From a virus: DNA of 20,307 bases. The notes below the pieces were generated by a model. That model saw only the letters and a list, made by a program, of their open reading frames with translations, was not told where the DNA came from and ran no database searches. Positions 7,084 through 15,748 of this stretch are shown piece after piece; the stretch's first letter is position 1, and every line of letters begins with the position of its first letter. The stretch spans positions 1 to 20,307 of IMG/VR virus record IMGVR_UViG_3300006027_000087, one strand, 5' to 3'. The position numbers and the translations under genes are program-made.

Positions 7084-7884
7084 TTAATACTCAATCAATG
7101 ATTTAGCAAATCCATAATCGTCATCAGCTTCGATAGTATTAGCATCAACTGATAATGCAGTATTAGATGTCGGATTACCATCAGAAGTTAAACCAGGTGT
7201 TATAGTAGCCTGAACTCCAAGATCACCAGTTGGTGTATTTGGTCTATAATTAATAACGGACCTTCTAATAATACCGGTACTTGAAGTAGGTCCAAATACA
7301 TATCCTTTCATTGTAAAGTTTAAATTCCATATCAAGGCTCTTCTTGTTGAAAAGTCACCTTCATATGTATCCTCTACTGAAACATCATTCAATATACAAG
7401 GAACATCATAAACTAAGTCCATATCTGGTATTAAATTTATATTGTTCGTCCATTCAGGTTGGAAATAAGGTAATATTTGCTCTAATATTTGTGTACCATC
7501 ATCTGCATTCTTAACAAATATGCTCATCTGAAACTGTATGTCATATGGTACAGGTCTGAATTGTGTAGTTAAATTAGTCTTATCTGATCTACTAATCTTT
7601 ACATTTTTTTGTGTAGATGGTAATTTTCTGTTAGAAGCATAGTTTATACCGGTCATTTCAAAACCTATACGTGGCAATGAAATAGCAACATCTTGATCTA
7701 AGTTAGGATCTTGAGATAATCTTACTAAAAACTTTTCTTTTGGACCATATGCGATAGGTACTTTAAGAGTCTGTATTCTTTCGTCGTTTTGATTAAAACG
7801 TTGAACATAGATACCGTTAAACATGTTGCCGAATACTACAACATATTTCCTTAATGTTCCATGATAGAATGTTTTACCGAACAT
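7084..7884 (-). CDS. 15: Tail completion / sheath stabiliser protein gp15
   Basis: Forms the terminator ring on top of the finished tail, capping the gp18 sheath and gp19 tube and joining the tail to the gp13/gp14 neck. It has 266 residues (T4 gp15: 272). It starts MFGKTFYHGTLRKYVVVFGNMFNGI, a typical T4-like gp15 opening in which FYHGTLRKYVVVFG is the strongest piece. FRPVPYDIQFQMSIFVKN and QILPYFQPEWT follow, also characteristic. The ATG at 7884 lies 2 nt after the gp14 stop, and gp16 begins 1 nt after its own stop. The tail of about 50 residues after RSVINYRPNTPTGDLG is low-complexity. Confidence 0.95.
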   Translation of the reverse strand: MFGKTFYHGTLRKYVVVFGNMFNGIYVQRFNQNDERIQTLKVPIAYGPKEKFLVRLSQDPNLDQDVAISLPRIGFEMTGINYASNRKLPSTQKNVKISRSDKTNLTTQFRPVPYDIQFQMSIFVKNADDGTQILEQILPYFQPEWTNNINLIPDMDLVYDVPCILNDVSVEDTYEGDFSTRRALIWNLNFTMKGYVFGPTSSTGIIRRSVINYRPNTPTGDLGVQATITPGLTSDGNPTSNTALSVDANTIEADDDYGFAKSLIEY

Positions 7885-7886
7885 TA

Positions 7887-8738
7887 TTAGTACCTATCTA
7901 TTTCACCGAATGGATTAACTTCACTAAAGTCTAAAATATTATCAGCCTGAGTTTGGAAGAACTGGTTGTTAGCTGAACGATCTGTAGTTTCAATAGTATA
8001 TTCTTGTAGTAATGTACCACCATCTTCAAGCTGTGCAACTCCGGTACCATCTTCTAAAGTGAACTGATAACCTAATGTATCAAGACTGTATGTAGTCTCA
8101 ATAGCATCAATAGCAGTATTACCGGTATCCAATCTCTCTGAGCTGTATTCGAAGAGCTCGCAACGAACATCATACGTTTGCAAACGTCCTGTTTGATAGA
8201 ATATTTGCTCGTGCTCTACAAACTTAATCTCAAATATTTTTCCTACCATTGGAAAATAAATGAGATCGCCCTCTTGAGGTCTGTTGATTGTATTAAGATA
8301 GTCATCTCCTTCCAACATAAAGGAGTCTGTATCTTTAGAACCAGAAAGATATTGTCGTGAAGGAGTTTTGGTACTACCGTCTTCGAAGATAAGATTGTAG
8401 CCAACCTCAGTTAACATCTTAGGCGATGTTATAGCTTGATCAAAGCGTTTTCTTGCAACGGTAAAAGTAATCTGATCTCGTATCTCTAAACCGAAACGAG
8501 AAAGAAGATCACCTTCCCCTTCGAAGCCCTCGACGTTTTTGATATACATTTCAACGTCGATAGCTTCATCGAATTTAGATAAGTCATCCTCACCAAACAA
8601 GTGATCCACATTCACCTTAGTGCGAGGCATATACTTTACATTATGACCGTAGATTTTTATTGCTTCGATCGTTAGATCTTCGACTAAATCTTGTTCTCGG
8701 CCATAGTTAAAGTTGTTAAAATAGACATTAGTAGCCAT
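7887..8738 (-). CDS. 14: Neck protein gp14
   Basis: Head-completion (neck) protein that, with gp13, seals the packaged head below the portal and receives the tail. It has 283 residues (T4 gp14: 256). It opens MATNVYFNNFNYGREQDLVE and continues IEAIKIYGHNVKYMPRT, diagnostic for T4-like gp14 (the YG.EQ.L.EDL..E.I...G..V.Y.PR pattern). DQITFTVARKRFDQ and EGDLIYFPMVGKIFEIKFVE follow; such proteins belong to the head-closure type. Start and stop are packed tightly: 1 nt after gp13 and 2 nt before gp15, implying coupled translation. Confidence 0.96.
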   Translation of the reverse strand: MATNVYFNNFNYGREQDLVEDLTIEAIKIYGHNVKYMPRTKVNVDHLFGEDDLSKFDEAIDVEMYIKNVEGFEGEGDLLSRFGLEIRDQITFTVARKRFDQAITSPKMLTEVGYNLIFEDGSTKTPSRQYLSGSKDTDSFMLEGDDYLNTINRPQEGDLIYFPMVGKIFEIKFVEHEQIFYQTGRLQTYDVRCELFEYSSERLDTGNTAIDAIETTYSLDTLGYQFTLEDGTGVAQLEDGGTLLQEYTIETTDRSANNQFFQTQADNILDFSEVNPFGEIDRY

Positions 8739-8739
8739 G

Positions 8740-9483
8740 TTAACCTATCATGTCATGAACTGGTAGACTGTAGCTTGAAATCATTTCATCTTCAAGCTTC
8801 ATAATAGCTTCTTGAGCTTCTTCCCATATCTTCTGACCGTTAAAGGTTAAACCACCCGGCATCTGAAGACCTTCAAACTTTTTAAGATTTTCACCCCATT
8901 GACGCTTAAACAGTTGTGTAGTATATCTCAATAGCCACCTATCACTATACATGTCAGTATTTACATCTGGGTCGATAACTTGGTAGCTATCAAGAATAAT
9001 ATAATCTCCGACAGGTATTTTATCTGTCCAGCTGGTATCGATATAAACTCGATCATTATGACGATTATATCTAATAGGCTGCTTACCTACAAAAGTTTCT
9101 TCCAGCATATTGACATGTGTCATTGCCATTGTATAAGGAACAATAGATGACTGGAGAAGATCGTAAAGATCATTAAGATGAATCTGGTAACGAACGTTAA
9201 ATAAGTTGTTAACTGAGTATGTACCACCTAGAACAAAGCAACCAGTTACACCAATAATTGATTCTGGTACAGTAATATAACCGTTTGTTTGATCACTCGC
9301 AGTACATATGTGCTTGTAAAAAACACGCTCTGTACCGTCAAAATGGTAGTCGCGATAATAAGCAATTGCTTCGTCGATACGATCTTCTAGCTGCTCATCA
9401 TCGACGTTAATATCGACAACTGGCTTACCAAGATTACGTAAGCACCATTCTTTGAGTTCATCTCTGGTAGCTGGTTTAGACAT
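8740..9483 (-). CDS. 13: Neck protein gp13
   Basis: Head-completion (neck) protein, connector partner of gp14. It has 247 residues (T4 gp13: 309), opening MSKPATRDELKEWCLRNLGK, then VDDEQLEDRIDEAIAYYRDYHFDGTE, the helical connector-like N-terminus typical of T4-like gp13. WLLRYTTQLFKRQWGENLKK, followed by GGLTFNGQKIWEEA near the C-terminus, is another strong family signature. It starts the tight gp13-gp14-gp15-gp16-nuclease-gp17 gene run. Its ribosome site AAAGGTG (spacing 6) lies inside the 3' arm of a predicted hairpin, and a late-promoter box lies in that hairpin's loop; see the regulatory entries at 9488-9528. Confidence 0.96.
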   Translation of the reverse strand: MSKPATRDELKEWCLRNLGKPVVDINVDDEQLEDRIDEAIAYYRDYHFDGTERVFYKHICTASDQTNGYITVPESIIGVTGCFVLGGTYSVNNLFNVRYQIHLNDLYDLLQSSIVPYTMAMTHVNMLEETFVGKQPIRYNRHNDRVYIDTSWTDKIPVGDYIILDSYQVIDPDVNTDMYSDRWLLRYTTQLFKRQWGENLKKFEGLQMPGGLTFNGQKIWEEAQEAIMKLEDEMISSYSLPVHDMIG

Positions 9484-9487
9484 GATG

Positions 9488-9528
9488 CACCTTTATAGTT
9501 TGATTTACTATTTATCACTATAAAGATG
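9488..9528 (-). promoter_or_regulatory. Hairpin sequestering the gp13 ribosome binding site
   Basis: On the minus strand, CATCTTTATAGT (9528-9517) is complementary to ACTATAAAGGTG (9499-9488), giving 11 Watson-Crick pairs and one G-U. The loop is 17 nt. The 3' arm contains the whole Shine-Dalgarno AAAGGTG of gp13, and the loop contains the late-promoter box GATAAATA. Transcripts arriving from upstream could fold and hide the ribosome site. Transcripts started at the box lack the 5' arm and leave it open. T4 genes e, soc and 49 are known to be controlled this way; its operation here is inferred. Confidence 0.65.
9509..9516 (-). promoter_or_regulatory. Late-promoter box GATAAATA for gp13
   Basis: GATAAATA on the minus strand fits the NATAAATA form of T4-like late promoters (one base off TATAAATA). 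It lies 25 nt before the gp13 ATG, in the loop of the ribosome-site hairpin. The same 9-mer GATAAATAG precedes the fibre gene. Confidence 0.6.
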
Positions 9529-9534
9529 TAGGGA

Positions 9535-9756
9535 TTATGAGATAACGATTGTATCCGTATCAGAAAAAAATTGCATAGTACCTTTACATACTATATTCCA
9601 GTCTAGTCCAGACTGCTCACTCCATGTAGGTACATTAATGCGGACATATTTGGCCAAGTATTCTTCTTCGTCTTTAAATACTCGCCATACATGAAGAGGG
9701 CTTCCGCGACCCGGTTGCCCTCTTGATTTATTGAAGCGTATCGAGAATTTATTCAT
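9535..9756 (-). CDS. Small conserved protein of unknown function before gp13
   Basis: 73 residues from ATG at 9756 (MNKFSIRFNKSRGQPGRG). The longer frame begins at a TTG (9768), which I reject in favour of the ATG. It is basic at the N-terminus with a compact mixed alpha/beta look (HVWRVFKDEEEYLAKYVRINVP). From memory, very similar small proteins starting MNKFSIRFNKSRGQPGRG are widespread and uncharacterised in T4-like cyanophages, so it is real and conserved although its job is unknown. The ribosome site is weak. It starts 18 nt after the chaperone gene's stop and ends 51 nt before gp13. Being co-transcribed with the adhesin genes, it may be a virion or assembly factor. Confidence 0.82.
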   Translation of the reverse strand: MNKFSIRFNKSRGQPGRGSPLHVWRVFKDEEEYLAKYVRINVPTWSEQSGLDWNIVCKGTMQFFSDTDTIVIS

Positions 9757-9774
9757 AATATATTTCAAATAGTA

Positions 9775-10155
9775 TTATTCGGAACCAGGTAATGCCGGCC
9801 AGCTGATATTAGAAGGAAAATCAGCGTCTAGTGTAATATCTCGTAAACTTTGTCTGTAGGCAATCCATGCGTCTCTTTCACCTGCTGTCATAGGTGTATC
9901 AGACATAACTGCCCAGTCAGAATCGGCAAGTAGTTTGTTACGTGTAGTACGCGCTTCATCTTCAGCTGAAGGCTCATCGGGTTCAGGATCTGGAGATACC
10001 TCAAACCAACCAAGATCATCTTTGCCAACCCAAGAGAGATCTGATAATTGATCTTTAACACCATGCAGACCGAATATAGGTCCCCAGTTCTCAGGCAGTG
10101 GCTCTGGTCCTTGTACTACCTCATTTGTTGATAATTTTCTTAGCTCCCAAGGCAT
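9775..10155 (-). CDS. Phage tail assembly chaperone-like protein (Phage_tail_APC type)
   Basis: 126 residues. The C-terminal half carries the Phage_tail_APC pattern: RNKLLADSDWAVMSDTPMT (about residues 72-90), then AWIAYRQSLRDIT and a terminal FPSNISWPALPGSE. The N-terminal half (WELRKLSTNEVVQGPEPLP) is a less conserved adaptor. In many tailed phages such proteins are encoded next to tail-fibre genes and are thought to help fibres or tails assemble; some may be virion parts. Here it follows the glycine-rich adhesin by one gene, which fits a role in maturing or attaching that adhesin. AGGAG precedes the ATG, and the gap after the 180-residue gene is 13 nt. Confidence 0.82.
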   Translation of the reverse strand: MPWELRKLSTNEVVQGPEPLPENWGPIFGLHGVKDQLSDLSWVGKDDLGWFEVSPDPEPDEPSAEDEARTTRNKLLADSDWAVMSDTPMTAGERDAWIAYRQSLRDITLDADFPSNISWPALPGSE

Positions 10156-13776: not shown

Positions 13777-14391
13777 TTAAGCTCGTTTAGGTGTTGATGT
13801 AACACAAAAATGTAAAAATTTTAGACTATTGTTTGAATAGTGAGGTGTAAATTTATGAGGTAGGAAGGAATTGAACACCATTAACGTGCCCTTTACTAGA
13901 TTATTAAATATAATAGACGATTCACCAGCAAGTATTTCTTCATGTTCAACCATAAACATGTCAGACATCAATTTACCTGGTCTCGGATCTTCGAATATTA
14001 AAGATGAGCTGTTTTCATCAGGCTGAGTAATAATATAAACACCACTTAGAACAGTATTCGAATGAACGTGTACTGGTTGCTGTGCACCGTAGGATAGTTC
14101 TTGTCCCCATAACGCATCAACACCTATATTATACAAAGATGTATCGTATCCTTGAGAATTTAATATCTCAACGGAAAGAGTATTTAAATGGTTAACAAAA
14201 GGCTGGATTGCGCTAGCGGCTTGACTACACTCCCATACAGCAGTTGTATTGAGAGGCATAGGTATATTGAAATTGTGTTTTTGTCTAGCTGTATTATATA
14301 AATTTTCCGTACTATTGTGTATCGTATCAGCCCACTGAGGTAGTTCATCGCGATACACAATAGATGGAAAATAGCTCCAACTTTGCATCAT
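13777..14391 (-). CDS. Putative 2OG-Fe(II) oxygenase, TIGR02466-like
   Basis: 204 residues, first of the four tandem oxygenases. The pattern QQPVHVHSNTVLSGVYI, followed by SSLIFEDPRPGK and then KGTLMVFNSFLPHKFTPHY and LKFLHFCV, matches the family of phage/bacterial 2OG-Fe(II)-like proteins known as TIGR02466. H108/H110 would be the first metal histidine region and H179 the distal ligand. I see no plain HxD/E acid, and the usual C-terminal arginine appears as K191, so activity is less certain than for its neighbour. Two in-frame ATGs lie at the start (14391 and 14388). No Shine-Dalgarno is visible in the A/T-only stretch before them. The N-terminus WSYFPSIVYRDELPQW is also family-like. Confidence 0.8.
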   Translation of the reverse strand: MMQSWSYFPSIVYRDELPQWADTIHNSTENLYNTARQKHNFNIPMPLNTTAVWECSQAASAIQPFVNHLNTLSVEILNSQGYDTSLYNIGVDALWGQELSYGAQQPVHVHSNTVLSGVYIITQPDENSSSLIFEDPRPGKLMSDMFMVEHEEILAGESSIIFNNLVKGTLMVFNSFLPHKFTPHYSNNSLKFLHFCVTSTPKRA

Positions 14392-14719: not shown

Positions 14720-15748
14720 TTAAGATAAGTTAGCCATCGGAATCGACACATACCATGTAGTGCCACCATCAGGCGAGAAAAAGAACCATATATCTGTTGC
14801 GTTCGCAGCTGTAGTTCTTGATACTGATCCTCCTGGATATTCAAATGTTCCGCCAGAAAAGGCTACCGTTCTACCTGCTGTACCATCATTAGTCAATATT
14901 AACGAAAATGATGTAGCAGTGCTTGATGTTACTGTACTAGGTGCAGCTAGTGTAAAGGTACAGTTACCATTAAGAGTACAGGTGAATACATTACCTTGTG
15001 TACATGTAATTGTCGTTGCTGTTCCGGAGTTACCTAATGCTACTACATCATCGGAAAATACTGCGTTCCAATAACCTAATTTGTCTATTCTAGCTTTTTC
15101 AGCTGCAGATGTTGAGAATGTTATAGTATTTGCAGCTGGAAACGCAATATTTACATCACCTTTAGTACCAACTGTTCCAGCTACTGTAGCTCCTGCTACC
15201 GTGTTAGCAGCAACTGTAGGTCCGGTAAATGGGCCAGTTGTTGCAATAGAAGTTAATGTACCAACGCTTGTGATATTAGGTTGAGCTGCAGTTGAAATAG
15301 TGCCCGCTAATGTGTTGGCAGTTACCAAGTCTACAGTTAAGTCACCGTCAAAGTCAATAGCGTCAGCTTGTAATGTCGTAAAGTTTGCTGCTGTAGCATT
15401 AACTGTATTAGCAGTAACGATCGGTGCTGTAACAGGTCCTGCAAATGCCCCTGTATTAGCAGTAATACCGTCTACAGTAAGATCACCATCAAAGTCGATA
15501 GAATCAGCCTGTAGTGTTGTAAAGTTTGCTGTTGTACCGTTAACAGTATTAGCAGTAACTATAGGAGCTGTTACTGGACCTTTGAACGATGCTGTGTTGT
15601 CAAAGGTATTAAGTGTACCTGTGAACGTGTTGTTAGATGCAAGACCAGCAGCTTGCGTATTAACCTGATTGAAACGCACACGCCAGGTGTTAAACGTATC
15701 AGATAACGCTACGTTCGCTAATGGTGTTCCTGAGTCAAATAGTGCCAT
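14720..15748 (-). CDS. Repeat-containing tail-fibre-like virion protein
   Basis: 342 residues. N-terminal MALFDSGTPLANVALSDTFNTWRVRFNQ (about 1-28) looks like an attachment module. Residues 57-140 hold two copies of a 47-residue-period repeat (GPVTAPIVTANTVN ... FDGDLTVD). Next comes TAAQPNITSVGTLTSI (154-169), a motif common in fibre and peptidase-trimming-type phage proteins. The C-terminal domain (about 225-342; YWNAVFSDDVVALGNSG, then FSLILTNDGTAGRTVAFSG and a final DIWFFFSPDGGTTWYVSIPM) is beta-rich and probably trimeric. The repeats suggest a fibrous shaft with a distal beta domain, so a fibre or fibre-like baseplate appendage is likely; the receptor is unknown. AGGAAA precedes the ATG, and GATAAATA lies 28 nt upstream. 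Confidence 0.83.
   Translation of the reverse strand: MALFDSGTPLANVALSDTFNTWRVRFNQVNTQAAGLASNNTFTGTLNTFDNTASFKGPVTAPIVTANTVNGTTANFTTLQADSIDFDGDLTVDGITANTGAFAGPVTAPIVTANTVNATAANFTTLQADAIDFDGDLTVDLVTANTLAGTISTAAQPNITSVGTLTSIATTGPFTGPTVAANTVAGATVAGTVGTKGDVNIAFPAANTITFSTSAAEKARIDKLGYWNAVFSDDVVALGNSGTATTITCTQGNVFTCTLNGNCTFTLAAPSTVTSSTATSFSLILTNDGTAGRTVAFSGGTFEYPGGSVSRTTAANATDIWFFFSPDGGTTWYVSIPMANLS
15329..15580 (-). repeat. Two direct copies of a 47-codon repeat in the fibre gene
   Basis: Copies at 15580-15470 and 15439-15329 (residues 57-93 and 104-140) differ at only a few residues: NGTTANF/NATAANF and ADSIDF/ADAIDF. The DNA is also similar but carries many synonymous changes, so the duplication is not recent or has been held by selection on the protein. 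Confidence 0.85.

Follow-up and report, generated by a model that had tools for sequence, protein, structure and literature searches.

The window analysed here, i.e., the whole stretch of 20,307 nucleotides of viral DNA, carries on its minus strand the gene for the neck protein gp13 (head-tail adaptor Ad2; 8740..9483; phrog_211, E 2e-40), followed in this order by gp14, gp15, an ORF in the gp16 position, an endonuclease-like ORF, gp17, gp18 and gp19. On the same strand, gp14 (head closure Hc2; 7887..8738; phrog_460/679) starts 1 nt past the gp13 stop, gp15 (tail sheath stabilizer; 7084..7884; phrog_227) starts 2 nt past the gp14 stop, and the ORF after gp15 begins about 1–2 nt past the preceding stop, a spacing that makes coupling among these genes possible; the gp17 ORF, by contrast, is preceded by a gap of 65 nt. 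Upstream of gp13 lies a co-directional ORF of 77 aa (9535..9768, minus strand), a source of read-through RNA, for which PHROG and Pfam searches gave no family match, and next to it, in the upstream module, a gene for tail fibre assembly or a tail assembly chaperone (9775..10155, minus strand; phrog_4912, PF16778). Ahead of gp13, the window and those relatives that share the arrangement described below have tail-fibre, oxygenase or aminotransferase genes, or genes of unknown function. One ORF of this upstream region, for a 2OG-Fe(II) oxygenase, contains just within its 5' portion a separate 13-bp perfect inverted repeat, CTATTGTGTATCG/CGATACACAATAG (14312-14363), with a fold z of –5.2 and no late box inside.

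The gp13 leader (minus strand, 9528-9488) reads CATCTTTATAGT-GATAAATA-GTAAATCAA-ACTATAAAGGTG, then CATC-ATG, with the gp13 start at 9483. The first element, CATCTTTATAGT (9517..9528), lies 6 nt beyond the stop of the 77-aa ORF and forms the 5' arm of a hairpin predicted by folding, in which it makes 12 contiguous pairs, including one U-G, with the 3' arm ACTATAAAGGTG (9488..9499). The loop of 17 nt opens with a T4-type late promoter box, GATAAATA (9509..9516), and the Shine-Dalgarno (SD) sequence of gp13, AAAGGTG (9488..9494), lies entirely within the 3' arm. The first-pass annotation had described just this, a 12-bp pair with one G-U around a late box and the full SD in the 3' arm, and both its bases and its coordinates are exact. 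The T4 late consensus TATAAATA, whose first base is variable, occupies positions –13 to –6 (PMC1524935), which places the predicted late transcription start in the region 9501..9504, with +1 at about 9503, past the box and ahead of the 3' arm; the 5' arm is carried only by RNA begun further upstream. The inverted repeat is likewise visible when the plus strand is folded, but gp13 is on the other strand.

Comparable elements are known from phage T4, where the SD and/or the start codon of e, soc, 49 and I-TevI lie in a helix that is absent from late transcripts (PMC3014915, PMC2988022); the mechanism is described as tested for e and I-TevI (PMC3014915, PMC2988022), and the long RNA of e is reported to be about 100-fold less productive (PMC3014915). 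As in the window, the SD of e (lysozyme) sits in the 3' arm and the late start drops the 5' arm; the late promoters of e lie inside the 5' strand of the hairpin. The two differ in setting: e serves lysis and follows early genes, while the hairpin of the window belongs to a neck gene that follows a fibre/accessory module. T4 soc and 49 resemble the window in being late genes with a sequestered SD or start codon. The first-pass annotation had credited e, soc and 49 with exactly this layout, which holds for e, recovered as a positive control by a scan for contiguous stems (10-bp stem), and goes too far for soc and 49, which the scan did not recover; their geometry thus differs from the simple stem of the window, and locks are underestimated by such a scan. 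In I-TevI/II/III, segB and Aeh1 mobE, a late or middle promoter lies beside a stem that sequesters the ribosome-binding site (RBS) (PMC2988022), but these are mobile endonuclease genes, while the window's hairpin precedes a virion gene. Structural genes listed with RBS sequestration are the T4 baseplate genes 25 and 26 (PMC2988022). Gene 26 gave a 7-bp stem in the scan, which pairs with the SD of the divergent gene 51, whereas the window has no divergent arrangement. At the T4 26/51 locus (L393:26428 and 26479), the SDs of the two divergent late genes are mutually complementary across the late-promoter region common to both, an arrangement that can pass for a lock in scans. In T4 itself, no late box lies within 70 nt of gp13, which hence has no such lock, and the open-licence literature searched contained no earlier report of this control for a neck gene, in agreement with what the first-pass annotation had supposed.

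Judged from these sequence features, the hairpin is most probably a cis-acting translational lock on gp13, of the kind found at T4 e, soc and 49. On RNA arriving from the upstream genes, the 5' arm would pair with the 3' arm and bury the gp13 SD, while late RNA polymerase with a gp55-type sigma factor would start RNA in the loop, about 6 nt past GATAAATA; the SD of this late RNA would be open, because the 5' arm is missing from it. Most gp13 protein would then come from the gene's own late promoter, with little from RNA that enters from the fibre/accessory module, and gp14 and gp15 would perhaps follow through translational coupling. What we infer in this account is where transcription starts, that translation is repressed in the cell, that the genes are coupled and what the lock is for; the stem, the box in its loop and the SD in its arm are read from the DNA. 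In silico, the SD is paired in the read-through RNA, the late promoter lies between the arms, and the SD is open in the late RNA: the computed cost of opening it, obtained on the identical leader L001, is 8.1 kcal/mol in the read-through RNA versus 0.8 kcal/mol in the late RNA, whose leader is predicted to be weakly structured. Speaking against the lock, the stem could be melted in part by ribosomes that terminate on the 77-aa ORF, whose stop lies 6 nt short of the 5' arm. As for the sigma factor, the window is a 20-kb fragment, and a gp55 homologue is found in all four long related contigs, including L045, which bears a lock of this kind, and is annotated in the isolate DLP6. The proposal of the first-pass annotation that gp13-gp17 are held off is overstated: only the SD of gp13 is covered, and the gp17 ORF is less likely to be affected, owing to the 65-nt gap before it.

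A stem of this length might also be a functionless inverted repeat that arose by chance in this phage. About 0.5 stems of at least 12 bp with loops of 8–30 nt are expected per strand over the whole window, so that the presence of one somewhere is unremarkable and what counts is its registration on the late box and the SD. Folded alone, the element has an energy of –11.3 kcal/mol (z –5.2; 0/200 shuffles as good); in a context of 96 nt the 12-bp stem is still the predicted fold, yet z is only –1.5 and 14/200 shuffles are as good. When the SD side was kept and the 5' region was shuffled with its dinucleotides preserved, an equally good stem appeared in 4/20,000 cases, and the best stems at the other seven late-box/start pairs identified in the window (eight with gp13) measure 4–6 bp.

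The same question can be put to related viruses. Viral contigs were scanned with three gp13 queries, one terminase query and one portal query, yielding 383 sequences including the window; the surveyed contigs belong to uncultured phages. Every ATAAATA with a start codon and SD 12–50 nt downstream was taken as a site (455 unique sites), sites were grouped by gene family and leader similarity, and the best contiguous stem was compared with those of dinucleotide-shuffled 5' regions. Of 141 unique gp13 leaders, 104 have ATAAATA at a distance of 12–60 nt before the gene, and gp13 leaders are mostly unalignable across lineages. A significant stem was found in 16 of the 59 gp13 clusters at p<0.05 (binomial 2e-8), 11 of them at p<0.01, while the control families gave significant stems in 2/49 (gp18), 0/11 (gp19), 0/10 (gp22) and 1/29 (a fibre-like family) clusters. 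In 26 of the 28 significant gp13 sites the stem covers half or more of the SD, against 47% with shuffled 5' regions. When 5' regions were exchanged between gp13 clusters, the mean score fell to 12.28, compared with 15.06 for the native combinations (z 8.5; 0/2000 permutations), and the corresponding exchange for gp18 gave a z of 1.1; pairing of the 5' region with the coding sequence instead was significant in 2/59 gp13 clusters, which is the chance level. The layout is repeated with arms of unrelated sequence, namely AACCCCTTAGTT/AACTAAGGGGTT (L022), ACCTTTGATA/TATCGAAGGT (L021), ATATTGCCT/AGGCAATAT (L003), AACTCCAACCATT/AATGGTTGGAGTT (L262), GTCACCTCTGATT/AGTCAGAGGTGAT (L250), AAGAAATCCTCTGTG/CACAGAGGATTTTTT (L178) and CTCTGATACAT/ATGTATCGGAG (L283). 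This recurring arrangement, like the stem itself, is evidence of the sequence kind, and since unrelated versions recur before gp13 in many related viruses, the lock looks selected rather than accidental. A chance repeat would fit the number of long stems expected anywhere in the window and the lack of the stem in most relatives, but not its position on the late box and the SD, the 4/20,000 shuffles, the repetition of the layout in 16 of the 59 clusters or the negative control genes, and we regard it as very improbable.

Compensatory base changes, the check that had been proposed for related phages, were sought in one alignable cluster of eight leaders, an 11-leader MAFFT alignment having misplaced two rows by one base. 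In this cluster the named stem has 87.5% paired cells, as compared with 30–51% when it is slid by 1–3 columns, and both sides of a pair change together from U-A to C-G in three sequences and from G-C to A-U in one; the covariation score is reached by 7/500 shuffles. The covariation is thus supportive but small and modest, and the expectation of the first-pass annotation is borne out in two forms, as both-side changes within this one alignable group and as re-evolution of the layout with different sequences elsewhere. Accessibility calculations point the same way across the survey: the SD opening cost in read-through RNA exceeds that in late RNA by >4 kcal/mol in 18/57 gp13 clusters versus 0/49 gp18 clusters (Mann-Whitney 1.5e-6).

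The pairing is kept in relatives, though most of them are without it: in 43 of the 59 gp13 leader clusters the stem is not significant or is missing, and T4, DLP6, phiM12, Cr30 and the cyano- and pelagiphage isolates inspected showed no lock in front of gp13. DLP6, phiM12 and Cr30, the isolates with gp13 closest to that of the window, have no late box within 70 nt. Among closely related contigs, the gp13 leaders of L005, L006 and L009 have near-identical SD sides, and L005 and L006 carry the 5' arm, while L009 is missing about 14 nt that hold it, thus forming with them a natural locked/unlocked pair. The lock would accordingly be optional, as most clusters are stemless, the inspected isolates lack it and the 5' arm is lost or gained among close relatives. 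In two further gp13 leaders (L013:2205 and L015:1010), inspection by eye shows a possible second stem, AGGAAAC/GTTTCCT, downstream of the late box; the SD would sit in its loop, so that late RNA might actively present the SD.

Alternatively, the stem could act as an intrinsic terminator, or it could serve the upstream transcript as a processing site or a stabilizing hairpin, with the SD overlap being incidental. In the gp20 leaders of these same phages, stems around a late box followed by T runs do look like terminators (see below). The stem of the window, however, is A+T-rich and is followed by CATC, with no T run; a T run follows only 2 of the 28 significant gp13 stems, so these are generally not terminators, and the SD lies in the arm at 26/28 sites as against about half in controls. 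A terminator scan gave no match at the site of the gp13 hairpin, nor did Rfam over 9300-9700 at gathering thresholds. Altogether, we consider such a role improbable. A divergent-gene artefact, in which two facing SDs pair as in T4 26/51, was rejected for the window, where the upstream ORF is co-directional, and the nearest upstream ORF is co-directional in 14 of the 16 significant clusters as well. A DNA-level protein site is judged unlikely because the arm sequences are unrelated between lineages. Finally, the idea that an upstream terminator replaces the lock where the stem is absent was set aside: terminators were found upstream in 5/43 unlocked versus 0/16 locked clusters, numbers that are too few and come from a crude scan.

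If the hairpin is indeed a translational lock, its purpose may be sought in timing or in dosage. According to the first possibility, which the first-pass annotation had put forward, early or middle RNA runs into gp13 and stays silent until late transcription, as for T4 gene e. This is established for e, soc, 49 and I-TevI of T4, which lie on long transcripts with early or middle genes, and 7 of the 14 locked loci with enough flank have no late-box gene in the available upstream 4–6 kb, so that the upstream RNA there could be early or middle. On the other hand, what stands upstream is a set of tail-fibre, oxygenase and further accessory genes rather than clear early genes, late boxes precede the window genes starting at 15748 and 14676, and no early promoter stands out, sigma-70-like hits being at chance (41 vs 35.6); timing is therefore a possible purpose, but a somewhat doubtful one. 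With fibre and accessory genes upstream, some of which have late boxes, RNA that reads into gp13 could belong to the late class too, and what the lock controls may be dosage, at the border of a module, instead of timing. The second possibility is then that read-through from the upstream module, including late RNA, is kept off gp13, and that this low-copy neck protein is dosed by its own promoter only. Several features are consistent with it: gp13 opens a conserved neck/packaging run behind a variable module, unrelated locks recur at this border, genes with late boxes precede it in the window, as they do at 7/14 locked loci, and terminators take the equivalent position at the gp19/gp20 border. 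This support is circumstantial, and the apparent excess of upstream late-box genes at locked loci is unconvincing, since 7/14 locked versus 7/32 unlocked loci show no clear difference; insulation of dosage is plausible, while still short of probable.

The border before gp20 (portal) offers a parallel. In the gp20 leaders of three unrelated lineages (L338:7945-8000, L305:1415-1472 and L045:18500-18556), the late box sits in the loop of a terminator-like stem that has a T run behind it, and the SD, further downstream, is free; in two other gp20 lineages (e.g., L371 and L366) an ordinary terminator stands just before the late box. Speculatively, hairpins with the late promoter in the loop could be, in this group of T4-like phages, a general and repeatedly re-invented means of insulation at module borders, silencing incoming RNA by burial of the SD at gp13 and by termination at gp20, from which RNA started in the loop would escape because one arm is missing; their purpose would be the dosage of low-copy vertex and neck proteins, and not early/late timing. 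This reading is rather unlikely to hold.

Examples of the T4 translational lock have so far come from a few T4 genes and from homing endonucleases. Its apparent re-evolution before gp13, with unrelated sequences, in many uncultured aquatic T4-like phages would turn an anecdote into a testable rule on where such locks are located, and a regulatory RNA whose arms turn over while its layout persists offers a natural experiment in compensatory evolution. For the biology of these phages, the gp13 lock suggests that they guard the dosage or the timing of a neck protein at the border of a variable module.
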